Of a stretch of 38,145 bases of DNA, positions 7,382 to 35,929 are shown piece after piece. The notes under the pieces were generated by a model. The model was given only the letters and a program-made list of their open reading frames with translations. It made no database searches and was not told where the DNA came from. A program made the position numbers and the translations under genes. Every line of letters starts with the position of its first letter. Positions within the stretch are counted from its first letter, which is position 1. The stretch is from Gammaproteobacteria bacterium. GTDB taxonomy: Bacteria > Pseudomonadota > Gammaproteobacteria > SZUA-140. The stretch is taken from NCBI GenBank assembly GCA_015491865.1, contig WFVD01000023.1, positions 1-38,145 of the forward strand, written 5' to 3'.

Positions 7382-9184
7382 TTATGGTCGTTCTTCTGCT
7401 GCCGTCAGTTCATCAAGAATAACTTTATACATCGTTTTAATATCGATGGGCTTGGGTATGTGGGCGCTCATGCCCACTGCATTGCACGCCTCAATCGTAC
7501 TCTGCGTTGCGTTGGCAGTGAGTGCGATGATGGGCAGTTTATCCCATTGCGGATTGTCTCGAATAGCTGTGGCGGCCTGAAAACCATCCATCACCGGCAT
7601 ATGAATGTCCATCAGGATGAGGTCGAATGAGAATGAGTCGAGTAGTGCTAGAGCCTCTTCCCCATTGCCTGCAACAGTAACGCAGAGGTTGATGCGTTCG
7701 AGTATCTTTTTTGCGATCAACTGGTTGGTTGTATTATCTTCTACCAGCAGGATGTTAGCTTTTAATGCGCTAAGTTTTTCTTCGTTGCTATCTGTTGTCG
7801 GCAGTACATTGTGTGGGCTAGCTTCTACTATTTTTACAGTGTTGAGATTTAACGAAAACGAAAATCTGCTGCCAACATTCGGGGTGCTTCTGACAGAAAT
7901 TTTACTCCCCATCAAGCCGAGCAACTGGTTGCTGATTGCCAGCCCTAAGCCAGTGCCACCATATTTTCGTGTAATGGAATTATCTGCTTGCTGAAAGGGC
8001 TGGAAAATAGATTTTAATTCACTCTCTGTTAGGCCAATGCCGCTGTCATTGACAGCGAAAAAAATAGTGGTGTGATTGTGTTTAACTGGTTGGGCACTTA
8101 CAAGAATGCGGATACCACCACTGTCAGTAAATTTAATCGCATTGTGAATTAAATTGGTGAGCACCTGTCTCAACCTCAGAGGGTCACCCACAACGACCAT
8201 TGTCTCTGGATAGGAGCATTCGGTGTTAAATGTGAGTCCTTTTTCTTCTGCACCTGTCTTGAATAGATCGACGACTTCATTGATGAGTTTGTCGAGCCTA
8301 AAGGGAAGTGACTCAATTGTTAATTTTCCTGCCTCAATTTTTGAAAGATCAAGGGTCTCATTGATGATAGCCAGTAAGCCTTTGCTGGCACTGGTCGCCT
8401 TTTCAATATATTCCCGTTCAGGTGCTGGCAGGTTGCCTTCGAGCGCGAGTATGTTGAAGTTAATGATCGCATTCATCGGGGTGCGAATCTCATGGCTAAT
8501 ATTGGCAAGGAAACGGCTTTTAGTCTGATTGGCCAGCTCTGCATTCTCCTTGGCGATTCGCAACTCTTTAGTCTGTCTGTTAACCGCAGTTTCCAGCTCC
8601 TGTCGGTACTCAATATTGGCGAGCGCCTGATTGGTTAATGGTGAAAATTTTTCCAGTAGCCTGACATGCTTCTTATTAAATTTAGCGGGTTCACTGTGGG
8701 TACAGACCAGGATGGCACGATGGTTCTGAGTGTGTAGTGGCGCGTGTAACGCAGATACAGTTATGGGGCCATGGTTGGGCTTGAGCGCTTGCTGCCAGGC
8801 TGGAATTGAATGGACATTGTGTGCGGCAATAACCTGTCCTGATAATATTCGCTGAATAAATCTGGAATTTTCCCAGTGAGTACTGGAGAAGGCGGGATGG
8901 GTGGTCATGCCGACGCGTAGTTCACCGTCCTCCTGTTCAAAGATGATAAATCCATTTTCAATCGGAATGAATTCAGTGAGCACAGCCAGTAGATTCTCAA
9001 ACATCTCCTGAGCGTTACGCGACGTGTTTAGAATACGCAGCCCTTCAAGCAGCCCTTCCGCCTCTCTGCGAAGGCGCTTTTCTCTTGAAATAATATGTTC
9101 AAGCTGAAGATGCTGTTCTATTAGCTCTTCGCGAGCAAACTCCTCAAGCCCCGGGATCGTGTCTGTGATGATTTTATTCGCCAT
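7382..9184 (-). CDS. hybrid sensor histidine kinase, NahK-like
   Basis: 600 residues. The order is an N-terminal coiled-coil (about 15-50), a GAF-like sensory region (about 55-190), and a second coiled-coil (190-225). Then come a HisKA dimerisation domain with phospho-acceptor His231 in ANISHEIRTPMN, and a HATPase_c domain with N-box Asn348, DSGIGL and GGTGLGLAI. A C-terminal receiver (about 475-595) has Asp526 in LMDIHMPVMDG and Lys578. No transmembrane segment is seen, so it is likely cytoplasmic. Its start overlaps the end of the FIST-domain gene by 11 bases, showing co-translation. The FIST plus hybrid-kinase pairing matches NosP/NahK of Pseudomonas aeruginosa, where NO binding to NosP controls kinase activity and biofilm dispersal. 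The function here is inferred from that pairing. Confidence 0.88.
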   Translation of the reverse strand: MANKIITDTIPGLEEFAREELIEQHLQLEHIISREKRLRREAEGLLEGLRILNTSRNAQEMFENLLAVLTEFIPIENGFIIFEQEDGELRVGMTTHPAFSSTHWENSRFIQRILSGQVIAAHNVHSIPAWQQALKPNHGPITVSALHAPLHTQNHRAILVCTHSEPAKFNKKHVRLLEKFSPLTNQALANIEYRQELETAVNRQTKELRIAKENAELANQTKSRFLANISHEIRTPMNAIINFNILALEGNLPAPEREYIEKATSASKGLLAIINETLDLSKIEAGKLTIESLPFRLDKLINEVVDLFKTGAEEKGLTFNTECSYPETMVVVGDPLRLRQVLTNLIHNAIKFTDSGGIRILVSAQPVKHNHTTIFFAVNDSGIGLTESELKSIFQPFQQADNSITRKYGGTGLGLAISNQLLGLMGSKISVRSTPNVGSRFSFSLNLNTVKIVEASPHNVLPTTDSNEEKLSALKANILLVEDNTTNQLIAKKILERINLCVTVAGNGEEALALLDSFSFDLILMDIHMPVMDGFQAATAIRDNPQWDKLPIIALTANATQSTIEACNAVGMSAHIPKPIDIKTMYKVILDELTAAEERP

Positions 9185-23475: not shown

Positions 23476-26400
23476 CTAACGTACTATTTCCTGCCATGAG
23501 ACGCGTCCTAATGTTGAGCTGCCCATGAAGTCGATCGTCGTTGAAGTGAGTTGGCCTTCGTCATCGGTGATCATCAGCAGGTTGCCAATGACGCCCAGCC
23601 CCCCAGGGATGCCCCCAACCCTGAAGCCACCCGCTACTTTACCATCGACCAAATCACTGCTATCAATAACTCCATCCCGGTTGACATCATAGGTAGGTAG
23701 TCCTGGCTGGCCGCCGTTGGTAGGGTCTACGACCATTACCCAGCCATCACCCTCTGGCAGACAGAGCTGTGAGCCAGGGATCAGGGTTGCAAAGATGAGT
23801 AATTTTCCGCGGACAATGGGGTCGACAGTGACACGTTCGCCATCGGTTGGCAGATCAAAAAACCACCCCATGTCAGAGGCGCTGTAGTCAATCGAGTGAT
23901 CGCTCATAACACGACTGGTAGTAGTAGAGCTAGCGCTATCCAGGGTCTGTTCAAGCAGGTCTGAGCGATTGAGATCATCAGCACCTTTATCCCAGATGCC
24001 GTAGAAGGTCTGTGTGTCGGTGCTTGTTTTATCGCCTGCGACAACATATTGCCCTGTGCCAAAGTAGACCATTAAATTAGGCTTATTCAGCAGAGAGGTA
24101 TTGACCTCATTTTGTCGCATGACAACCGGCCTTGAGGTGATTGGCTGAGGATTATTACTGTCATCCGTGGCGACAAATAGCGGTTGAGGTGTGATGCCCT
24201 GTTTGTAGGCGACCTTCCAGTCCGGGCTGCCTAGCGATGTATCTGTCAGGTCAAAGGCCCATAGGTTACCCAGTAGGTCGCCAGCGTAGACGCGGTCAGC
24301 AAGGAGATCGCCGGTGGTGTCGAGGGCGATAGGCGCAGAGAGACCATTGAGGGAGGTTAGTGAGCCCACTTCGGTATCGATTTTGAGGTAGTCAGAACCA
24401 AGTGTCCATTCACCATCCTGACCACCATCGAGGAAGATAATGAAGAGTTTGGCTCGGCCATCGCCACTACTGTTATAACCATTGCTGACGATGGCCGCCC
24501 ACCTGCCATTTGCCATTTTTGCGATAACAGGTTTGCTCATGGTGTAGCCAAGATCGGGGTCGTCATCGCTGGTGAATTCCCACTGCACTATCGATGAGGC
24601 GTTGGTTTCAGCATTGGCGAGTGCGGAAGGATCCGTGACATCGAGTGCAAAGATACCGCGGCCACCCGAACGAAGTCCCGCGACGAGCAAGGTGCGCCAG
24701 GATGAGTTAAGGTAAACATCTGCAATGGCCGGGCTGGCATCAACATAGTAGCGGTGGGTATAATTTGGGTCAGTGATGTAATGTAGCCCTTCGTTGGCGT
24801 TGTCAGAGAAAAGGACATTCGGGATGTAAGCGAATACCTCTTTGCCGGTATCCTCATCGAATGCGTGTAGCATGCCGTCATTAGCCCCGATATAGATAAG
24901 GCCATCACGGTTCGCATGGGTCGCTTTAAATTCAGAATAAAGGCTTCCTGCGGTAGTCGGGAATGGCGCAGCATCTGGATAGTTGGCGCGTGTTTTACCA
25001 ACAAAGACCGGGTTTGAATGAACCAGATCGCCGAGTACATTCGTACGGTCTCGGAAGCGCAATCCAGTCGATTCGTTGCTGCGATCACCTCTGAGGTAAT
25101 CGATTCTCTCTTGGCCGTTGCCATCTGCTGCCGATGGACCTCGATTGAGGTCTGCCTGTTGTTCAGGTGAGAGATCAGAGAGTGTTCTAAAGCGGATACC
25201 GGTTGAGTCTGAGGGAGTGCCCGTATCCTTTTTGTAGGTGATGACCTGGCGTGAGCTATAAGACTGAGTATTGAGCTGGTCGCCAGCATTCCATTTTGGA
25301 TTTGTGGCAAGAGAGCCATCAGGATTGATGTCAGTGGCAATCAGCTCTCCTTTCCAGTTATCAGAAGGGTTAAATAGTGCCTGGTAGACTGTTGAACCGG
25401 TATCGAGCGTGGAGGCATTAAAGGCGACGGCTGATGCGGAGCTTGCTCCTTTTGATGCGCTGACTATTGCAGCCTGAATGGCCGCAATCAGGTCATCCGG
25501 GTTTTGAGCACTAAAGAAATCTCCGCGACCATTAAAGGCGGTGTGCCACAGATCATCAATCCTGCCAGGATCTGTATTTGGGTTACGCCAGTCGAATCCT
25601 GGGTCTGATGGGTCTGAGTCTGTTGCATCGCCAGGTGTCTTGATATCACCTGGGTCAAGGTCACCGGTCACACCAAAGGCGACGGTATAGGTGGTCATGT
25701 GTTGGTGTGGTGCATCATCAATCCCAGAGGGCGGAACTTCATCGCTGAGGGCTGGCCTTAAGTCGCGCTCATAAAAGTGCATGGCAACATCTGCCAGAGT
25801 ATTACCCCACCCATCGGCGTAATCACCACCATCCCAGGGGCCTGCACCATCAGCATCTGTGTTGCCAACACCGGGGCCATCACCGTTATAAAAGCCATCC
25901 GTTAGCATGATGGTAAAATTCTTCTGGCACATGCCAAATTCGTCGGCAGGCAAGATGGGGCAGTCACTGCCACTCGCATCAAAAAAATTATCATCATCAC
26001 ATTCAAAGTAACGCCCAACATCTCTCAGATTTTGGCGTAATGGTGTGCCCCCATTAGAGCGGGTCAGGAATAGCCTGTCGAAAAGGGTTCTTTTGTTACC
26101 GACGCCAGGGTTAATATTCATTGTTTCAATCGGTAAGTTCACATCATCAATGTTATTAATAGTGCCATAGCCGATCTTTACGCCGGTGACGCCCTGCAGT
26201 GCTTGGCTGATAGCATACTTCACAACATATTCACGGCTGCGATGGTAGGTAAACCAGTTGGCAAAATTTTGTTGAGTGGTAGCATCCTGGTCTTTGATTA
26301 GAAATTCAGTCTGTTCGCCATCCTCATACAGACCGTCGCCATCGGTGTCGCTCCAGGTGTAATAGCGGAAGCCATCTGTTTTCAGGCGCTCTGTCCCCCC

Positions 26401-27048
26401 TTCATTGAATGTCCAGTTGTTTCCAGGGTCCAGGGTCCAGTTCCATCCCACTATAACTGCGGGGTCATCTGTGGTCAGGTTAATCCACTCGGTGGGGTTG
26501 TAGGGGTTGTTGGGGGCGTTCGTGAGTGATGCATCGGTATAAGGGTTACCTGAGGCATCAACACCCGCCCATGGTAGATAGGTTTTGGCAGGGTCAAAGT
26601 AGAGTGGGTTGAAGTCACTACTGCGAAAGCGCCACGCCTCTTCATCTGCCACAAAACAGCCTCTGACCCAGGTGCGATCAGGGAGGGCGATGTCGACCTC
26701 GGTCCATGAGAGATAGCTATTACTGCGAAACAGGGCGTTATAAGTATATGCAAAACCACAGTCAATAGTGCCATCATTAAAAAGATCGGTATGTCTATAC
26801 TCATTAACACCCATATTGGAGCCATCCGGCTGGGAGCCAGCAATAAGCCCATTTGGCGCAGTGACCATGCTCTCCCAGTGCATGCTGCCGGAGTCATCGT
26901 TAAGGAGCATGATGTTGGATTCTACTGCCGGGCCAACATAGAGCGGGGCCTGTTCGAGCACGCCTGGTGCGGCATGCGTTGTGTTCACCAGCGTGAGCGT
27001 GAGTAGTGATGCGAGACTCGAGATTAATAGCGATTTTTTTGCGATCAT
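23476..27048 (-). CDS. pilY1: type IV pilus tip-associated adhesin PilY1
   Basis: 1190 residues from the ATG at 27048 (AGGA 8 bases upstream); an ATG at 27081 would overlap the pilX stop. A signal peptide (about 1-28, ending THA) is followed by a von Willebrand A-like N-terminal region with the MIDAS motif DDSGS at 51-55. The C-terminal third is the PilY1/PilC beta-propeller, with WEFTSDDDPDLGYTMSKPVI and DRVYAGDLLGNLWAFDL. Two EF-hand-like calcium loops are visible: DTDGDGLYEDG from residue 234 and DVNRDGVIDSSD at 1121-1132. PilY1 is secreted to the pilus tip with the minor pilins. It controls extension/retraction, adhesion and, in Pseudomonas, surface sensing (family knowledge). Confidence 0.95.
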   Translation of the reverse strand: MIAKKSLLISSLASLLTLTLVNTTHAAPGVLEQAPLYVGPAVESNIMLLNDDSGSMHWESMVTAPNGLIAGSQPDGSNMGVNEYRHTDLFNDGTIDCGFAYTYNALFRSNSYLSWTEVDIALPDRTWVRGCFVADEEAWRFRSSDFNPLYFDPAKTYLPWAGVDASGNPYTDASLTNAPNNPYNPTEWINLTTDDPAVIVGWNWTLDPGNNWTFNEGGTERLKTDGFRYYTWSDTDGDGLYEDGEQTEFLIKDQDATTQQNFANWFTYHRSREYVVKYAISQALQGVTGVKIGYGTINNIDDVNLPIETMNINPGVGNKRTLFDRLFLTRSNGGTPLRQNLRDVGRYFECDDDNFFDASGSDCPILPADEFGMCQKNFTIMLTDGFYNGDGPGVGNTDADGAGPWDGGDYADGWGNTLADVAMHFYERDLRPALSDEVPPSGIDDAPHQHMTTYTVAFGVTGDLDPGDIKTPGDATDSDPSDPGFDWRNPNTDPGRIDDLWHTAFNGRGDFFSAQNPDDLIAAIQAAIVSASKGASSASAVAFNASTLDTGSTVYQALFNPSDNWKGELIATDINPDGSLATNPKWNAGDQLNTQSYSSRQVITYKKDTGTPSDSTGIRFRTLSDLSPEQQADLNRGPSAADGNGQERIDYLRGDRSNESTGLRFRDRTNVLGDLVHSNPVFVGKTRANYPDAAPFPTTAGSLYSEFKATHANRDGLIYIGANDGMLHAFDEDTGKEVFAYIPNVLFSDNANEGLHYITDPNYTHRYYVDASPAIADVYLNSSWRTLLVAGLRSGGRGIFALDVTDPSALANAETNASSIVQWEFTSDDDPDLGYTMSKPVIAKMANGRWAAIVSNGYNSSGDGRAKLFIIFLDGGQDGEWTLGSDYLKIDTEVGSLTSLNGLSAPIALDTTGDLLADRVYAGDLLGNLWAFDLTDTSLGSPDWKVAYKQGITPQPLFVATDDSNNPQPITSRPVVMRQNEVNTSLLNKPNLMVYFGTGQYVVAGDKTSTDTQTFYGIWDKGADDLNRSDLLEQTLDSASSTTTSRVMSDHSIDYSASDMGWFFDLPTDGERVTVDPIVRGKLLIFATLIPGSQLCLPEGDGWVMVVDPTNGGQPGLPTYDVNRDGVIDSSDLVDGKVAGGFRVGGIPGGLGVIGNLLMITDDEGQLTSTTIDFMGSSTLGRVSWQEIVR

Positions 27049-27080
27049 GATCGTATTCCTGGTTTCTTTATAACGCTTCA

Positions 27081-27623
27081 CTAGAAGATGCGGACATAGT
27101 TGGATTGAAGAAAGACGACGGCGCTATCACTGCCGCCTGTGCCACGGGCAGTAATGCGAAACACATAGGGGGTGCCGAGGGAGTCCAGTGTATCGTAGGA
27201 GCTGATGTTAAGGTCATCCGAACTTTCGTCTGCGAACGGGCCGGCAAACTCGATAATGAAACGGGGCTGTGAGGTGACGCCAGGATAGGTGCCGAAGGTG
27301 CCACGGTAGGCGATGGAGTTAACCCAGGTAGCATCTAACAGTACGGGTGGGTCTGAATCTAGTTCATAGAGCCCGAGTTCAGTGCCGTCGAAGGCGGCTG
27401 CGAGGGAGTTGATTTCAGTTTCGAGGTAGTTTTCACCATCCAGCAGTGCTGTTTCGGCGGTTTGTAACGCGAGCAGTGAATCGCGTGTGTTGCCTGCCAT
27501 CTTCTCTTCAAGGATGGTGCTGCGCATGGCAGTGACACCAATTAATGTCATGACAACCAGCAGCATCAGGCTGACGACCAATACGGCGCCGGTCTGTTTA
27601 GTGATGTGAGGGTATCTATTCAT
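27081..27623 (-). CDS. pilX: type IV pilus assembly protein PilX
   Basis: 180 residues from the ATG at 27623 (MNRYPHITKQTGAVLVVSL). A longer frame to 27731 overlaps pilW and has no pilin start. The N-terminal hydrophobic helix, then TAMRSTILEEKMAGNTRDSLLALQTAETALLDGE, is the PilX N-terminal signature. Like other PilX and GspK proteins it lacks the Glu5 of canonical prepilins; +5 after the Gly is Val. It probably caps the minor-pilin complex. It lies between pilW and pilY1 in the conserved operon. Confidence 0.92.
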   Translation of the reverse strand: MNRYPHITKQTGAVLVVSLMLLVVMTLIGVTAMRSTILEEKMAGNTRDSLLALQTAETALLDGENYLETEINSLAAAFDGTELGLYELDSDPPVLLDATWVNSIAYRGTFGTYPGVTSQPRFIIEFAGPFADESSDDLNISSYDTLDSLGTPYVFRITARGTGGSDSAVVFLQSNYVRIF

Positions 27624-27645
27624 AGCTCTTGTTATCCTGCTGAAA

Positions 27646-28617
27646 TTAGATGAGGCGATTGCGGATAGAGGTGGTTGATGTGTAGGTGCGTGTAATGCGG
27701 CCAAAGGTGCCATCAGACCTGTGGAGGTCATTCAGGGTAGAGAGTGTCAAGGTGATGCGAACGCTAACAACATCATTCATGTTGGTCACACTACTGGCGG
27801 GTTGATAGATTGTCGCAATCTGGTTGTTGTCAGTAGGGTCACTGTCGACGCCAAAGAGTATTTGCATATCCTGCACCCCTTCAACCAGTTCAACATTGTT
27901 GCCATTTTCATTACGAAACAGGGCGGGTTCACCGCTGGCACCTGCCTGGATGGAATAGGTGACGCTTTTTATGCGGTAGATGGTGCCGCTGTCATTATAT
28001 TCCAGCCCTGGGATGGTGGCGTTTCCAAAGCCGGGATCATTATTCCCCAGATTGGCTACGATGGTGTTATTGGTGCCTGAGTTTGCATTGGTGATTTCAA
28101 AGACATCTGCTTTTCTGCAATCAGTGGCAATCACCACATCTCGTTCATCAAGGCCATGGTTCACGGTTGTAACGTCAAATGAAGCGGCACTGACATTATG
28201 GGTTTCAATGCCTAACCCTTCACCGTAAGCGCCCTGCAGGACGAGTGTATCGGAGCCGTTTAGTCCGCTATTATCGGTTCCATCCACGCCACTGGTAGAG
28301 GGATCAACAGGGTGGTTAGCAGGCGTTGTGGGCGGATTGGGTGGATTAAGGTTGTTGGTAATGGTGATGTTTGGGTCGACTGATATGTTGGTGCACCCCC
28401 AGAAAGCGGCCATGCGGATCTCTCTGGCGATATGGTCCATTGCAAAGCGGCCATTCTCCTGTATCCGTGATAGCTCTTCGGTCAGACGATAGCTCTGCTT
28501 ATTGCCAACAAAGATCTGAACGACGCCCGCCAGTAAAATCAGGCTGATGGTGATGGCAACCATTATTTCAACCAGGGTCAGCCCCTGTTGTCTTTTTTTG
28601 TATGGAGGATAATTCAT
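27646..28617 (-). CDS. pilW: type IV pilus minor pilin PilW
   Basis: 323 residues from the ATG at 28617, whose first bases overlap the pilV stop (ATGA, 4 bases), showing translational coupling. The class III signal QQGLTLVEIMVAITISLILLAG has Leu at +1 and Glu at +5. The pattern continues with NKQSYRLTEELSRIQENGRFAMDHIAREIRMAAFWGC, the PilW signature. The C-terminal half is a large beta-rich domain with a proline-rich stretch (NPPNPPTTPANHP, around 107-119). It primes pilus assembly with PilV, PilX, FimU/FimT and PilE. Confidence 0.94.
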   Translation of the reverse strand: MNYPPYKKRQQGLTLVEIMVAITISLILLAGVVQIFVGNKQSYRLTEELSRIQENGRFAMDHIAREIRMAAFWGCTNISVDPNITITNNLNPPNPPTTPANHPVDPSTSGVDGTDNSGLNGSDTLVLQGAYGEGLGIETHNVSAASFDVTTVNHGLDERDVVIATDCRKADVFEITNANSGTNNTIVANLGNNDPGFGNATIPGLEYNDSGTIYRIKSVTYSIQAGASGEPALFRNENGNNVELVEGVQDMQILFGVDSDPTDNNQIATIYQPASSVTNMNDVVSVRITLTLSTLNDLHRSDGTFGRITRTYTSTTSIRNRLI

Positions 28618-29105
28618 AGTATTGTCACACTTATGGCTAGGCATTTAAGGTCGGTAGGTGTGGCTGAATTGCAACCAAGGCCGGTGGCTCCGTTGCGCAG
28701 CTCATCCCAGCGTACGGTGATCACGAATGTACTGCTGTTACCTACAACGGTGCCTGCGCCAGAAGGGAGTAGTTCGGCGAGCGCGGTGTTCCACTCACGG
28801 GCGTCGTAGTCGGCTAGTTGCTCTGCGGAGCAGCCTGTGGTGATGCAGCCTGGGTCGTCTGGGATGCCGCTAATATTGTTGTATTCGTTGTCACTAACCC
28901 CTTCGAGATTGGCGCGCATTCGGTTGGCCATATCATAGGCCATTAGCGCTGCCTGGCTCTGCAGGTAGGCGTTGTGGTTGTTTTTCAGGCTATTGGCCTG
29001 AAGGCCTGCTAGCCCGAGCAGGCCGATTGAAAGGATGACCATGGTGACCAGCATTTCAATCAGCGTGAAACCGGATGCAGCTTTATATTTGTTAGATAGT
29101 TTCAT
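28614..29105 (-). CDS. pilV: type IV pilus modification protein PilV
   Basis: 163 residues. The class III signal ASGFTLIEMLVTMVILSIGLLG has Phe at +1 and Glu at +5. QANSLKNNHNAYLQSQAALMAYDMANRMRAN is the PilV family block. A Cys-rich middle region (DDPGCITTGCSAEQL) and a late GLGCNSATPTDLKCL can form disulfides. The stop overlaps the pilW start by 4 bases. It begins 17 bases after the FimT-like gene ends. Confidence 0.94.
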   Translation of the reverse strand: MKLSNKYKAASGFTLIEMLVTMVILSIGLLGLAGLQANSLKNNHNAYLQSQAALMAYDMANRMRANLEGVSDNEYNNISGIPDDPGCITTGCSAEQLADYDAREWNTALAELLPSGAGTVVGNSSTFVITVRWDELRNGATGLGCNSATPTDLKCLAISVTIL

Positions 29106-29122
29106 TGCCTCTATCCCGGTTG

Positions 29123-29707
29123 TTAGCAGCTTGTGACAGAAACGGTGGCATCATTGGCCGGGGCGCTTCGAATCTGTCCGGATGCGTTGATGACGATGGC
29201 GCGCGCTTTATCACCGAACCCCCGGCTGTCACAGAGTACAAGGGTTCCTGACTGTGTGCCGCCACCCCCTACAATCTGCGAAGAGCCGTTGTAGGTATAA
29301 GAGACATAATTACCAACATTTCCAGTAACACCATTAAGAGTAGGGTTACCATCTAATGGGCCGTGCGTACGCAGGATCGTGTCGGTATTATTGACGGTAG
29401 CATCGCTATTACTGTCGGTAAAGATGATCCACCCCTGCTGCCAGCCGCCAGCCGTAGTACAACTGGTATTATTGGCACTTTTACAGATGGTCACCCGGTC
29501 ACCGCGTTTGACCGCTTCGCTACGGGTAATATTAAGCGAGGTGACCAGGTCGTTAGCCTGGGTCACGATACGGTTATCCTGGATCATTGTCGTAAAGCTG
29601 GGTACTGCCTGCGAGAGAATAATGGCAGCAATGGCTAACGTAACCATCAGCTCAGTTAAGGTGAAGCCTGTCTGTTTTCTGTTCATGGGTGATGTTTTAG
29701 CATTCAT
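29123..29707 (-). CDS. fimT: GspH/FimT family pseudopilin
   Basis: 194 residues from the ATG at 29707 with a modest GGA 6 bases upstream. A GTG at 29722 and an ATG at 29686 are also possible. The prepilin signal KQTGFTLTELMVTLAIAAIILSQAVPSF has Glu5. The GspH/FimT domain follows with NDLVTSLNITRSEAVKRGDRVTICKS, GGWQQGWIIFTDSN and a C-terminal VLCDSRGFG. It is either FimT or FimU; the two are hard to separate by eye. In Pseudomonas fimU heads the minor-pilin operon and fimT is next to thiO. Here a single gene occupies both places. It is the first gene of the operon. Confidence 0.88.
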   Translation of the reverse strand: MNAKTSPMNRKQTGFTLTELMVTLAIAAIILSQAVPSFTTMIQDNRIVTQANDLVTSLNITRSEAVKRGDRVTICKSANNTSCTTAGGWQQGWIIFTDSNSDATVNNTDTILRTHGPLDGNPTLNGVTGNVGNYVSYTYNGSSQIVGGGGTQSGTLVLCDSRGFGDKARAIVINASGQIRSAPANDATVSVTSC

Positions 29708-29877
29708 GGTTTTTCCGGTCACGCGAAAGGCGACGAGCTGTTATATTTGTCCGATAAACGGTCATCTGGGTTAGAATTCCCGGGTTTCAGTCCCGCTTCT
29801 GGACTATTCATCGGCGCATGGGCGGGTTTCTTTTAGGTTGCATTTTGAGGTGTGTGTGGTGAGACAGCGGGAAAGCG

Positions 29878-31186: not shown

Positions 31187-31456
31187 TTAATCCCGACCCG
31201 TAATCCCGGCCTCCTTGAATATTGCAATGGCTTCATCAAGCGCTATCTGTGCTGTCTCCCTGTCTTTGAATGGGCCATGAGATTCACCGCCACGTACCAG
31301 AAAGTACCAGCCATCTTTTGAACTGTCGCCATTTTTATTGACTAATGAAGATTGATAAAAAAAACGGTCACTTCGATAGTAGAGCGCTTGTTCCGCTGGC
31401 GGTGAAGGTTCATCTTCCTGGGCGGTAAAGAGGGTCTCTTTTATTTTTTTCCACAT
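31187..31456 (-). CDS. small conserved protein, DUF6316-like
   Basis: 89 residues, no signal peptide or membrane segment. The central YYRSDRFFYQ, then DGWYFLVRGGESHGPFKDRETAQIALDEAI, resembles the small DUF6316 family (RSDRFF, WYF, GPF and an Ala-rich helix). I assign this from memory of the pattern, not a search. The function is unknown. An acidic proline-bearing stretch (EDEPSPPAEQ) precedes the domain. It sits between the tRNA and regA on the same strand as regA, 153 bases further on, so it may be a separate unit. Confidence 0.65.
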   Translation of the reverse strand: MWKKIKETLFTAQEDEPSPPAEQALYYRSDRFFYQSSLVNKNGDSSKDGWYFLVRGGESHGPFKDRETAQIALDEAIAIFKEAGITGRD

Positions 31457-31609: not shown

Positions 31610-32182
31610 TTACTGCTTAAGAGGTCGTTTCTGAAGTTTTCGCTGTAATGTACGGCGGTGCATGCAGAGTTGTCGTGCTGCAGCAGAGATATTGCCGTTG
31701 CAGTCGGCGAGTACTTTCTGGATATGCTCCCATTCAACGCGGTTAACCGACATCGGTTTAGTGGTAACGGGCGTATTGCTATTGCCCTCTTCTCTGTAAA
31801 ACGCTTCGACCACATCATCGGCATCGGCTGGCTTTGAAAGGTAATGTGTAGCGCCGAGTTTTATCGCCTCAACAGCCGTCGCGATGCTGGCGTAACCGGT
31901 CAGAACCACGATTCGGGTGTGGGCATCGAGCACCTTCAGCCGTTCGACCAGCACCAGGCCGGATGCCCCAGGCATATTGAGGTCAACCACCGCAAACTCT
32001 GGCGAGTTCTGTTCTGCAAGTTTTACTGCATCATTGACATTGCTGGTGATGGTGACATCAAAGCCACGCTTGCTGAGCGCCTGACTCAACACATAACAGA
32101 AAGTTTCATCATCATCGACCAGCAGGAGTGACGGCGCATCGTTGAGCGGGCTGTTGCTGGTTTGCTCGCCTCCTCTATTCAT
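31610..32182 (-). CDS. regA: RegA/PrrA/RoxR-family redox response regulator
   Basis: 190 residues. A receiver domain (about 17-130) has the acidic pocket LLVDDDET, phospho-acceptor Asp67 in VVDLNMPG, the switch Thr in VVLTGYAS, and Lys in YLSKPAD. A Fis-type helix-turn-helix at the C-terminus reads NGNISAAARQLCMHRRTLQRKLQKRP, the RegA/ActR/PrrA signature. These regulators control respiration, photosynthesis, nitrogen and carbon fixation genes in response to redox state (family knowledge). It overlaps regB by 4 bases (ATGA), so it is translationally coupled to its kinase. Targets here probably include the divergent cytochrome. Confidence 0.93.
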   Translation of the reverse strand: MNRGGEQTSNSPLNDAPSLLLVDDDETFCYVLSQALSKRGFDVTITSNVNDAVKLAEQNSPEFAVVDLNMPGASGLVLVERLKVLDAHTRIVVLTGYASIATAVEAIKLGATHYLSKPADADDVVEAFYREEGNSNTPVTTKPMSVNRVEWEHIQKVLADCNGNISAAARQLCMHRRTLQRKLQKRPLKQ

Positions 32183-33456
32183 GCCGTCACCATTAGCGGT
32201 TTAAGTGGCAGCTGTATGTTAACACTTGCGCCGCCACCCTCACGGTTATTCATCGTGATATGGCCGCCGAGGCGTTCAATCACAGCCTGTGCCAGGAATA
32301 GCCCAAGCCCCTGCCCCTCTTTTTTCGTAGTGAAAAATGGGGTGCCGATGACGGCCTGTGTCTTTTCATTTAACCCCTCCCCACGGTCATTGATCTCAAC
32401 TGCTAGACGCTCACGATCCCAGCTGAAGATGATCTCAATCTGCTGCGGAGATGCATCGGCAGCATTGTTTAAGATGCTGGTGAGCGCCTGGCTCAGGGTG
32501 TCATCAACTACGATCAACGGTGCGGGTTGCGGGCCACACCACTGCGGTTGCAGGGTGACATTGGGACGTATCAGACACCACTGTTGCAGCACATCATTCA
32601 GGTAGCTGTCGAGTGGTTGCCGGATAGCACCTTCGGCACGCGATTGCCCTGCGCGTGCACTAATCTGTGTCAGTGTCTGTTTGCAGCGTTCAATCTGTTC
32701 GCGCAGCATTCGGGTCTGTTCCGTCATCTCGGGGCGGCTGGTTAGCTCATTCTGTAGCTCTTTGGTGATGACCGCCATCGTCGCGAGCGGCGTACCAAGC
32801 TCGTGCGCAGCACCGGCTGCAAAGGTGCCGAGTGACACCAGGTGCTCATCACGTAGCGCCTTCTCTCGCGCTTCGGCAATGGTCTGTTCTTGCTCGCGTA
32901 ACGTATCAGCCAGCTTTACAACAAAAAAGATGATCAACCCGGCGCCTAGTAAAAAACTAAACCACATGCCGATGATATGCTGGTTAAAATCACCACCCTG
33001 GTGCTCTCCGATGCTATGCATCGGGGTGAAGAAAAACATCAGCAGTGTATAGCAGGCGATGGTGATGGCCGCCATTCCCCATGCATAGAGGCGCGGCGCA
33101 GTGGTTGCCACAATAACCAGCGGTAGCAGCAGAAGTGAGACAAAAGGGTTGGTCGAACCACCAGAGAGGTAGAGGATGGCGGTGAGTACGACCACATCGA
33201 TGACCAATTGTATAAAAAAAGTGTTGATGTTAATAGCGTGTCGATGACGTAGCCGAAGCCATGAGACAACATTAAGGATGCCGTAGACAGAGATCACGGT
33301 AATCAGCGGCAGTAGCGGAATATGGAGGTGCAGTTTAAGCGAGGCGATGGAAGCTCCCAGTAAATAGCAGATAATCACCACGTTCCTGAGTACAAAGAGC
33401 TGTTTCAGGTTCTGCGCAATTGATGTGTCTGAGGTAGCGGTCGGCTGTATAAACAT
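32179..33456 (-). CDS. regB: RegB/PrrB/RoxS-family redox sensor kinase
   Basis: 425 residues from the ATG at 33456; a TTG at 33534 or GTG at 33459 is possible. Six hydrophobic segments span about residues 20-185. The quinone-binding heptapeptide GGxxNPF is present as GGSTNPF at 99-105. The H-box GAAHELGTPLAT has His218. The redox Cys lies at 258 in IERCKQ, exactly 40 residues later, the same distance as His225 to Cys265 of Rhodobacter capsulatus RegB. The catalytic domain has EINDRGEGL and GQGLGLFLA. It should autophosphorylate under reducing conditions and phosphorylate RegA. Confidence 0.94.
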   Translation of the reverse strand: MFIQPTATSDTSIAQNLKQLFVLRNVVIICYLLGASIASLKLHLHIPLLPLITVISVYGILNVVSWLRLRHRHAININTFFIQLVIDVVVLTAILYLSGGSTNPFVSLLLLPLVIVATTAPRLYAWGMAAITIACYTLLMFFFTPMHSIGEHQGGDFNQHIIGMWFSFLLGAGLIIFFVVKLADTLREQEQTIAEAREKALRDEHLVSLGTFAAGAAHELGTPLATMAVITKELQNELTSRPEMTEQTRMLREQIERCKQTLTQISARAGQSRAEGAIRQPLDSYLNDVLQQWCLIRPNVTLQPQWCGPQPAPLIVVDDTLSQALTSILNNAADASPQQIEIIFSWDRERLAVEINDRGEGLNEKTQAVIGTPFFTTKKEGQGLGLFLAQAVIERLGGHITMNNREGGGASVNIQLPLKPLMVTA

Positions 33457-33526
33457 CACAAAATAGTTAGTGGTTCTGGAGCGGGTTTGCCAAGTACCAT
33501 TGTAGCGTGTGGTTGGGGGTGTGTCG

Positions 33527-33543
33527 TGTGACAAGATGTCGCA
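33527..33543. promoter_or_regulatory. candidate RegA/PrrA binding site
   Basis: TGTGAC (33527-33532), five bases, then GTCGCA (33538-33543) forms an inverted repeat with 5 of 6 matches. It fits the GCGNC-N5-GNCGC type consensus described for PrrA/RegA, with one departure (GTGAC). It lies in the 192-base gap between divergent regB and the cytochrome gene, the expected place for autoregulation and cytochrome control. Match by eye only. Confidence 0.45.
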
Positions 33544-33648: not shown

Positions 33649-34962
33649 ATGAAAGCTCGCTGGCGTGTTACGTCTTTTCTTTTTGTGGCGGTGTTATTGA
33701 GTAGTGGTGTCGCTACTGCTGAGGGTGATGAACCACGCTACGCGCAGCTGGTCTACTCCGGCAATCTCGATGGTGAACTGGAGCCGTGTGGTTGCAGTGA
33801 GTATGGTAATCAGGGCGGGATAAAACGGCGGGTTAGTAAGATTGATACATTGCGCGCAGCGAATCCGGATCTCTTTCTGGTTTCTGCGGGGGGGCTGCTG
33901 ATTAGCGATCTGCCGCAGGACCGCCTCACCAGTGACTATATCCTCAGAGGATTTGCCGCGCTCAATTACGATGCAGTAGGGGTGCAGTGGCAAGACCTCG
34001 CTTTTGGTGTTCCCTTTTTACAGTCGCACCATCTGCCGTGGGTAGCGAGTAACTGGCATGGTGAAACCTTCGCCACTGAAAAACAGATTCAACACGGCGA
34101 TGTGACATTGAGTTATTTTCAGTGGCTTGATCCTGCGCAGGCACCTCAGGGTGAGATGCAGGGGGGGCATCTACCGGTGACAGCAGATGTGGCTGAATTG
34201 GCTGAGCGACTTAATGTGGCGCGTAGGCGGGGTGATGTGACACTGTTGGCGACGACGCTGTCGTTAGCGGATGCGCAGCAGCAGTTGCCGCTGAATGATC
34301 TCTCGATCCTGGTGATTGAATCCAACTATGAACTTTATGCCGACCCCAGATTAGTCGATGGGGTGCTGGTACTGCAGCCCGGTTCGCGAGGTATGCGGCT
34401 GGCATCGATCAACCTTGAGATCGATAAAATAGGCCGCATCATCGCGTGGCAGCATGAGGTCATGCCGTTACCACCAGCCGTGGGTGATGCACCGCGTATG
34501 GCTGACTGGTACAACGCTTATAATGCAGAGGTGAAGGCGGCCTATAAAAAGAGCGTTGAACTGCGCAAGGCGCAGAAATCGGGTGAAAGCCCTTTTGCTG
34601 GCGCGCAGGCATGCAAAAGCTGTCATCAGGCTGAATATAAAAGATGGTCAAAGTCACGTCACAGCGATGCCTTTTACACCCTGCAGGATGTGAACAAGGC
34701 GTTCGATCCAAACTGTATTAGTTGCCATACGGTTGGCTTTAATCGAGACGGCGGTTTTATCGACCCCGACTCAACGCCCGCTCTGCTGCATGTGCAGTGT
34801 GAATCCTGTCACGGCGCGGCACGTGAGCATGTCGCATCCGCAGGGCGGATATCGCCCGAGTCTACCGGTAAAGCGAAGGCTGAGCGCTGTCTGCAATGTC
34901 ACAATGCAACCCATAGCCCACTTTTTAAAGTAGAGGATTACTGGCCGAAGATTAGCCACTAG
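33649..34962 (+). CDS. tetraheme cytochrome c with degenerate UshA-like N-terminal domain
   Basis: 437 residues. A Sec signal peptide (1 to about 24, VATAEG) sends it to the periplasm. Residues about 30-270 resemble the N-terminal part of UshA-type 5'-nucleotidases. The usual metal-ligand start is replaced by YSGNLDGELEPCGCSEYGNQGG with Cys47 and Cys49, so phosphatase activity is unlikely. The C-terminal part has four c-heme sites: CKSCH (322-326), CISCH (356-360), CESCH (384-388) and CLQCH (414-418), with extra His residues as possible distal ligands. This resembles the cytochrome c554 group. It probably carries electrons in the periplasm; substrate unknown. It is divergent from the redox kinase gene regB. 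Confidence 0.85.
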   Translation: MKARWRVTSFLFVAVLLSSGVATAEGDEPRYAQLVYSGNLDGELEPCGCSEYGNQGGIKRRVSKIDTLRAANPDLFLVSAGGLLISDLPQDRLTSDYILRGFAALNYDAVGVQWQDLAFGVPFLQSHHLPWVASNWHGETFATEKQIQHGDVTLSYFQWLDPAQAPQGEMQGGHLPVTADVAELAERLNVARRRGDVTLLATTLSLADAQQQLPLNDLSILVIESNYELYADPRLVDGVLVLQPGSRGMRLASINLEIDKIGRIIAWQHEVMPLPPAVGDAPRMADWYNAYNAEVKAAYKKSVELRKAQKSGESPFAGAQACKSCHQAEYKRWSKSRHSDAFYTLQDVNKAFDPNCISCHTVGFNRDGGFIDPDSTPALLHVQCESCHGAAREHVASAGRISPESTGKAKAERCLQCHNATHSPLFKVEDYWPKISH

Positions 34963-35050
34963 TGGGCGTATGCATTGTCTGTGGTTCTTGAGTACAATGT
35001 CTGCGAATTGAAAGTAATCGACAGTGACAAGATTCAGGGGTTGAGTGTCT

Positions 35051-35374
35051 ATGAGGTATCTCGTAATTGCGGCGGCGGTGATGGCTATTCTGGCCGGGGT
35101 GATCTTTAGTACCGCAGGCAAAAAGATGATGCATGTGACCAGTAGCGAGGTGGCTGTTGTGGAACTGCCTGAGCCGAATTCAGCCGGTGCCGGTCTGTTT
35201 AAACAGTATTGCGCGCAGTGTCACGGCCTGCCAGCAATCGACACGCATACCGCGGCGGACTGGCCGCGCGCGGTTGAGCGCATGATGACCAACATCTCGG
35301 CCAGTGGCAAGCAGATACCGAGTGACGGTGAGCGTGATCTGATCGTCAGTTACCTGGTTCGCCACGCGAAGTAA
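35051..35374 (+). CDS. membrane-anchored monoheme cytochrome c
   Basis: 107 residues from the ATG at 35051; a GTG at 35045 is also possible (CAGGGG is 4 bases before the GTG, 10 before the ATG). An N-terminal hydrophobic segment (about 4-20) without a clear cleavage site suggests a membrane anchor. A single heme site, YCAQCHGLPAI, is near residue 55. The axial Met is probably in VERMMTNI. The closing SDGERDLIVSYLVRHA is a typical small class I cytochrome helix. It follows the tetraheme protein by 88 bases and may accept electrons from it. Partner and pathway are inferred. Confidence 0.85.
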   Translation: MRYLVIAAAVMAILAGVIFSTAGKKMMHVTSSEVAVVELPEPNSAGAGLFKQYCAQCHGLPAIDTHTAADWPRAVERMMTNISASGKQIPSDGERDLIVSYLVRHAK

Positions 35375-35383
35375 TCCTGCTCG

Positions 35384-35929
35384 ATGCCCAATGTTATTGA
35401 TAACGGCTGGCTGAGCTCGGCCTGTCGCCGGCCTTCGCCCAACTGCGACGAACGCCCGAAAGATAGCGCCATCAACCTGCTTGTGATTCACGGCATTAGT
35501 CTGCCGCCAGGTGAGTTTGGTGAAGGGTGGATCGAAGACCTTTTCTGTAACCAGCTAGACCCAGAGGCTCACCCCGCTTTTGCCGGGCTCAGCGAGCTAC
35601 AGGTCTCTGCCCACCTGCTGATTCGACGCAATGGTTCGGTGGTTCAGTTTGTCCCCTTTGGGAAGCGTGCGTGGCATGCGGGTGAATCAGTATTTTCAGG
35701 GCGAGAACGCTGTAATGATTACTCGATCGGGATAGAGCTTGAAGGAACCGATGAGTGCCCCTACGCAGTCGCACAGTACCGCGTACTGGCGCGTCTGGCG
35801 CGACATCTGATGGAGTGCTACCCCGCGATTACTCCGCAACGTATTGTGGGGCATAGCGATGTTGCGCCGGGGCGCAAAACAGATCCCGGCCCCTCGTTTG
35901 ACTGGCCGCTGTTTCGTTCGATGCTGTAG
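35384..35929 (+). CDS. ampD: 1,6-anhydro-N-acetylmuramyl-L-alanine amidase AmpD
   Basis: 181 residues, no signal peptide, cytoplasmic. A zinc amidase that removes the peptide from 1,6-anhydroMurNAc-peptides during cell-wall recycling; its loss induces AmpC in species with AmpR (family knowledge). Zinc ligands fit His in LVIHGISLPPGEFG, His in VGHSDVAPGRKTDPGPSFDW and the Asp in the same block (KTDPGP). RAWHAGESVFSGRERCNDYSIGIELEG is the AmpD core. It begins 10 bases after the cytochrome gene, so it may be co-transcribed, but functional linkage is not evident. Confidence 0.96.
   Translation: MPNVIDNGWLSSACRRPSPNCDERPKDSAINLLVIHGISLPPGEFGEGWIEDLFCNQLDPEAHPAFAGLSELQVSAHLLIRRNGSVVQFVPFGKRAWHAGESVFSGRERCNDYSIGIELEGTDECPYAVAQYRVLARLARHLMECYPAITPQRIVGHSDVAPGRKTDPGPSFDWPLFRSML

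Follow-up and report, generated by a model that had tools for sequence, protein, structure and literature searches.

The PCGC-tetraheme gene and its surroundings

The gene considered here lies on the plus strand at positions 33649-34962 of the window (the whole stretch of 38,145 nucleotides that was analyzed), with its ATG at 33649 and its stop codon ending at 34962, and it encodes a protein of 437 amino acids, below called the PCGC-tetraheme protein. Judged by eye, residues 1-24 (33649-33720) form a signal peptide. This peptide is followed by a metallophosphatase domain of the UshA/SoxB type in which the metal ligands are replaced; profile comparison places it at about residues 28-305 (33730-34563). 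Near the start of this domain, the E-P-C-G-C segment (residues 45-49; 33781-33795) holds the sole non-heme cysteines of the mature protein, in the CGC triplet at residues 47-49 (33787-33795, codons TGT GGT TGC). The C-terminal domain (residues 313-437; 34585-34959) is cytochrome c554-like (PF13435, E 2.4e-15) and carries four CxxCH heme sites: C322-H326 (34612-34626), C356-H360 (34714-34728), C384-H388 (34798-34812), and C414-H418 (34888-34902). The coordinates, the CxC pair, and the four CxxCH sites given in the original prediction for this DNA are all correct on the open reading frame at 33649-34962.

A small monoheme c-type cytochrome (35045-35374, plus strand) is encoded 82 bp downstream of the gene, and ampD (35384-35929, plus strand) follows 9 bp after it. 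On the minus strand, and divergent from the gene, are a RegB/PrrB/ActS-type sensor kinase (32179-33534; 261.8 bits, cut-off 350) and a RegA/PrrA/ActR-type response regulator (31610-32182; 205.1 bits, cut-off 250). Downstream of the regulator, the same strand encodes a small DUF6316 protein (31187-31456; PF19837, E 3.9e-8). Two regions of the minus strand farther away were also noted. The region at 23476-29722 has a 1201-residue open reading frame, with no NCBIfam match at 1e-40, and then smaller ones with prepilin-like N-termini (FTLIEM, LTLVEIM, and FTLTELM); by eye it looks like a minor pilin/PilY1-type cluster. At 7385-9184, a 600-residue open reading frame has the look of a hybrid histidine kinase; it matches the BarA model with E 3.1e-108, far under the cut-off of that model.

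Relationship to a catalogued selenoprotein family

Conservation was assessed in an alignment of 41 homologues that are 43-93% identical to the window protein. The fusion protein L093, which has KPCGC, the partial copies L057, L067, and L097, and a contig-split copy in genome G313 were left out of this alignment. One relative, at 93% identity, comes from a Chromatiales bacterium (metagenome assembly HyVt-459).

The window protein matches the NCBIfam model NF041198, "UshA-like (seleno)protein" (UshA_like_PCGU), with 208.6 bits (E 1.5e-61), which is below the curated equivalog cut-off of 275 bits. The match covers both halves of the model (profile positions 14-269 and 349-517 of 519), and all 41 aligned proteins match it as well; its cut-off is reached in none of the 369 genomes drawn from the class of the window. 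The two-domain architecture of NF041198, an UshA-like part and a C-terminal tetraheme part in one chain, is present in the window protein. The same holds for the PCG(U/C) motif, which reads PCGC in 41 of 41 sequences. What differs is the residue after PCG, selenocysteine there and cysteine in the window protein, and the score below the cut-off. On the strength of these matches, we regard the window protein as a Cys-form relative of NF041198, a catalogued selenoprotein family.

The Global Ocean Sampling study (PMC2398784) and two reviews (PMC13188914 and PMC9312934) include UshA-like selenoproteins with a CxU motif in their lists; the Global Ocean Sampling study distinguishes this group from families in which Cys redox motifs are conserved. 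The passages of these three papers that list the family name no function for it. In the open-licence literature, neither a function nor a heme fusion was found for NF041198-type proteins, nor was a characterized orthologue. The original prediction had called the architecture undescribed. That description has to be withdrawn, because the architecture is already on record in NF041198 and in the selenoprotein tables, albeit with no function attached.

A metallophosphatase fold with a replaced metal site

As a single sequence, the window protein has no Pfam match to Metallophos. The profile of the 41 homologues, however, finds 5′-nucleotidases in the PDB (3ivd, E 9.4e-9, and several CD73-type chains near 2e-6). 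Moreover, hhalign comparison of the N-terminal part of this profile with four intact UshA-type sequences gives a probability of 98.8 and an E value of 1.3e-16 over 262 columns. By these profile comparisons, through which alone the fold is recognized, the resemblance of the N-terminal half to UshA is one of real homology, and the half can be assigned the metallophosphatase fold that is shared by UshA, CD73-type 5′-nucleotidases, and SoxB. An AlphaFold2 model built from a two-sequence alignment (the window protein and L021) had a mean pLDDT of 32.9, too low to be informative.

In metallophosphatases of the UshA and SoxB type, the dimetal ligands are found in the motifs DxH, GD, NHE, H, and GHxH/Q. 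We take the metal and catalytic positions of UshA to be D41, H43, D84, N116, H117, H217, H252, and Q254. Each of them is replaced in the hhalign alignment, by N39, D41, G82, W114, Q115, T203, N226, and E228, respectively, of the window protein. The replacements extend to the family. In the 41 sequences, the column of UshA D41 has N in 37, D in three, and S in one, that of H43 has D in 33, N in seven, and L in one, and that of D84 has G in 38 and Q in three. The N116 column is W and the Q254 column E throughout; the H217 column has T in 27, A in six, and S in four, plus others, while the H117 and H252 columns are mixed. The dimetal ligand set of the UshA and SoxB enzymes is thus lacking from the window protein.

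New residues have become invariant at the replaced site: E45, C47, G48, C49, W114, D116, E228, R247, and R250 are the same in 41 of 41 sequences. The CGC lies within a short insertion in the loop directly after the first metal motif. Hence, the window protein differs from UshA, CD73, and SoxB in that the metal ligands are replaced and CGC is inserted, and in that a tetraheme domain stands where those proteins have a C-terminal nucleotidase domain. Read from the alignment, the N-terminal half is a degenerate metallophosphatase domain that has lost its metal site. The reading of the protein as such a domain joined to a tetraheme cytochrome therefore holds, on profile homology, ligand replacement, and the four CxxCH sites; intact phosphatase ligands, the result named beforehand as refuting it, are seen at none of the metal or catalytic positions.

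The CGC pair and the hemes

All 41 sequences have the segment EPCGC; with identities to the window protein that range from 43 to 93%, this conservation is far beyond chance. In all 41 mature proteins, every cysteine outside the CGC pair is one of the eight heme cysteines, which places the CGC outside any structural disulfide network. In addition, the second Cys position is occupied by selenocysteine in NF041198 relatives, and it matches the U of the CxU motif of UshA-like selenoproteins, an exchange that argues for redox chemistry and against a structural role. Together, these three observations bear out the suggestion in the original prediction that the CxC is a functional pair.

The C-terminal domain scores 57.7 bits against PF13435 (gathering score 20.8) and, with its four CxxCH sites, has what is expected of a c554-like domain. 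Profile comparison also relates it to cytochrome c554 of known structure (PDB 1bvb, E 1.7e-16), in a match that spans the first three heme sites. The window protein differs from cytochrome c554 in being fused to a dead phosphatase domain and in ending with an invariant His, H437 (34957-34959, plus strand). The four CxxCH sites and the residues H338, H394, H422, and H437 are invariant in 41 of 41 sequences, which makes these four histidines candidate distal heme ligands. Eight histidines for four hemes would fit bis-His hemes, and thus a role in electron transfer, as opposed to open catalytic hemes.

Five PCGC-tetraheme relatives from other classes of the phylum (L099, L101, L102, L103, and L105) lack the terminal motif YWPKIxH, and hence their eighth heme ligand may have moved elsewhere. 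Two genomes of the family of the window (G013 and G016) encode c554-like tetraheme proteins that stand alone, being about 200 residues long and lacking the phosphatase-like half (L018 and L019). At the other end of the chain, a lipobox-like motif replaces the ordinary signal peptide in nine of the 41 aligned proteins, so some relatives are probably lipid-anchored.

Distribution and gene neighborhood

In the class of the window, 60 of 369 genomes matched the family search. Both halves are present in 40 of them, and the other 20 read as ordinary nucleotidases or lone cytochromes. In a draw of 299 genomes across the phylum, the gene appears in one other family, with four genomes, and in a single more divergent genome. 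A scan of viral contigs with the alignment gave no relative, and genome contigs gave one; plasmids were without a match. The PCGC-tetraheme protein is a strongly conserved, widespread, and real protein.

For the neighborhood comparison 47 loci were examined, and 43 of them were displayed with a core gene. The family accounts for 42; the remaining one (L098) is an ordinary UshA that had been drawn into the cluster by chaining and is left out of the count. A further three loci, which do carry the gene (L060, L065, and L092), were dropped from the comparison through the choice of open reading frame. Within the genus, the small monoheme cytochrome adjoins the gene in six of eight displayed loci, and it does so in no other sampled family. 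Outside the genus, neither the divergent RegB/RegA-type pair nor the small cytochrome nor ampD recurs. Among the displayed loci, no partner gene recurs across families that would point to a substrate, and the neighbors are mostly housekeeping genes. Five loci from another class of the phylum, four of which show the gene by pattern, share no partner either. Gene neighborhood was therefore rejected as functional evidence outside the genus.

The proposal of a redox module that also includes the small cytochrome and the sensor has gene linkage behind it only within the genus; neither adjoins the gene in the other sampled families. Because the gene sits among unrelated, mostly housekeeping genes in those families, the protein probably needs no constant operon partner to function. 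Neighbors bearing CGPC and CSSC (at L076 and L087) were considered as thioredoxins and set aside, as no resemblance was seen by eye.

A DsbA fusion and the disulfide-forming oxidases

In one genome (G202), a single open frame of 643 residues (L093, 9444-11375) encodes the PCGC segment, the four hemes, and then, behind the heme domain, a DsbA-like domain (PF01323, E 2.4e-6, residues 476-608) whose CxxC is CSRC. The fusion was seen in this genome only and is absent from three other genomes of its family. Its existence is the reason why disulfide-forming oxidases were compared between 40 genomes that carry the gene and 39 that lack it; the set of 39 had been picked by completeness and size ahead of the tests. 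DsbA-family proteins are present in all 79.

Canonical DsbB, taken as PF02600 with E below 1e-15 (a limit set after the scores were seen), is found in 0/40 genomes with the gene and in 23/39 without it (Fisher 8e-10). In the class-wide draw of 369 genomes, a hand count gives 0/40 and 192/329, respectively. With 67 genomes placed on an rpoB tree, a Pagel test favors correlated over independent evolution by a likelihood ratio of 21.8, and one on the smallest clade holding all positives does so by a ratio of 11.4; each value was reached in 0/45 simulations. For 12 of 80 genomes, rpoB was not matched under the limit applied, and they are off the tree; G105, which was added once its DsbB status was known, is excluded from these tree figures. 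Tests of the Pagel type can mislead when events are few.

The outcome depends on how DsbB is defined. At Pfam's own cut-off, which includes weak BdbC-like PF02600 matches, the counts are 11/40 with the gene and 24/39 without it (Pagel p 0.10), and with VKOR added they are 18/40 and 24/39 (p 0.16). VKOR is commoner with the gene (9/40 versus 2/39; p 0.20 on the tree), and so are the weak BdbC-like matches (11/40 versus 1/39; p 0.016 on the tree). In the genome of the window itself, a BdbC-like gene, of the DsbB family by a weak PF02600 match, lies 6 bp ahead of a DsbA-like gene (contig 15 of G000, L111:4554-5705). DsbB, BdbC-type, and VKOR oxidases are all missing, at the limits used, from 22/40 genomes with the gene and from 15/39 without it. 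Because of the BdbC-like and DsbA-like pair in the window's genome and of these 15 gene-less genomes, replacement of DsbB is neither needed nor sufficient. The exclusion of canonical DsbB is thus an exploratory lead and no proof of replacement. Together with the DsbA fusion, it points, at this exploratory level, to periplasmic thiol oxidation. Because the association is not significant on the tree under the looser DsbB definition, the function of the PCGC-tetraheme protein is one that we infer.

A proposed mechanism and its alternatives

With confidence that is evenly balanced, we propose that the PCGC-tetraheme protein is a periplasmic thiol-disulfide/heme oxidoreductase. In this model, the metallophosphatase fold would be retained as a substrate-binding scaffold, and the lost dimetal site would have given way to a redox pair, Cys-Gly-Cys here and Cys-Gly-Sec in the known relatives. 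The CGC would exchange two electrons, taking or giving them, with a substrate that may be a thiol, a disulfide, or sulfane sulfur. A conserved His is available as second ligand for each of the four hemes, which would then relay single electrons between the CGC and a soluble cytochrome; in the genus, this partner is probably the adjacent small monoheme cytochrome. As to direction, we lean towards oxidation, with electrons running from substrate thiols through the CGC and the hemes to the respiratory chain.

A different substrate is assumed if the protein is a sulfur-compound oxidoreductase, whose SoxB-like fold would handle thiosulfate, polysulfide, sulfite, or carrier-bound persulfide while the CGC holds sulfur and the hemes collect electrons. 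We consider this unlikely. The SoxB thiosulfohydrolase model TIGR04486 does match 33 of the 41 aligned proteins (best E 5.6e-12) and is, heme models aside, the commonest functional match after the NF041198 and NF049981 models. However, ligands of the SoxB type are not kept, and both DsrA and SoxB are absent from the genome of the window. Nor does either track the gene, DsrA being present in 11/40 genomes with it and 14/39 without it and SoxB in 12/40 and 16/39, so that a link to sulfur oxidation was rejected.

The proposed thiol-disulfide/heme oxidoreductase can also be given a narrower form, in which it is a heme-linked periplasmic thiol oxidase: electrons would run from DsbA-type proteins to the CGC (or CGU) and on through the tetraheme wire, with cytochrome c replacing the quinone of DsbB and VKOR. 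So specific an assignment is quite unlikely to be right in full. Thiol oxidases of the DsbB, VKOR, and Erv1 type use quinone or flavin, whereas the window protein has c-type hemes. Their sequences are unrelated to it and no homology is claimed; alike is the proposed job only, the delivery of thiol-disulfide electrons into the respiratory chain.

The protein might instead be an electron-transfer scaffold and nothing else, with the phosphatase domain as a docking module, the CGC as a structural disulfide, and the hemes as a relay. Relay roles are common among c554-type tetraheme proteins, which speaks for this account, but a structural disulfide leaves the selenocysteine at the second position unexplained, as it does the invariance of the CGC together with E45, W114, D116, E228, R247, and R250, and we judge it decidedly improbable. 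Least probable is a metal- or metalloid-binding protein in which the CGC, E45, and nearby residues bind Cu, Zn, As, or Hg and the hemes alter its oxidation state: CxC pairs can bind soft metals and E45, D116, and E228 are invariant, but the relatives have selenocysteine, and no neighbor of any kind recurs across families among the displayed loci.

Significance for the family

The proposed thiol-disulfide/heme oxidoreductase gives a catalogued selenoprotein family without known function a testable job, in which a dead hydrolase would be reused as a heme-wired redox center. If the protein is truly a thiol oxidase, it would represent a further bacterial route to disulfides, via cytochrome c instead of quinones. 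It would then also help to account for those gammaproteobacteria that have no recognizable DsbB, BdbC-type, or VKOR oxidase, a group that includes the 22 gene-bearing genomes counted above.
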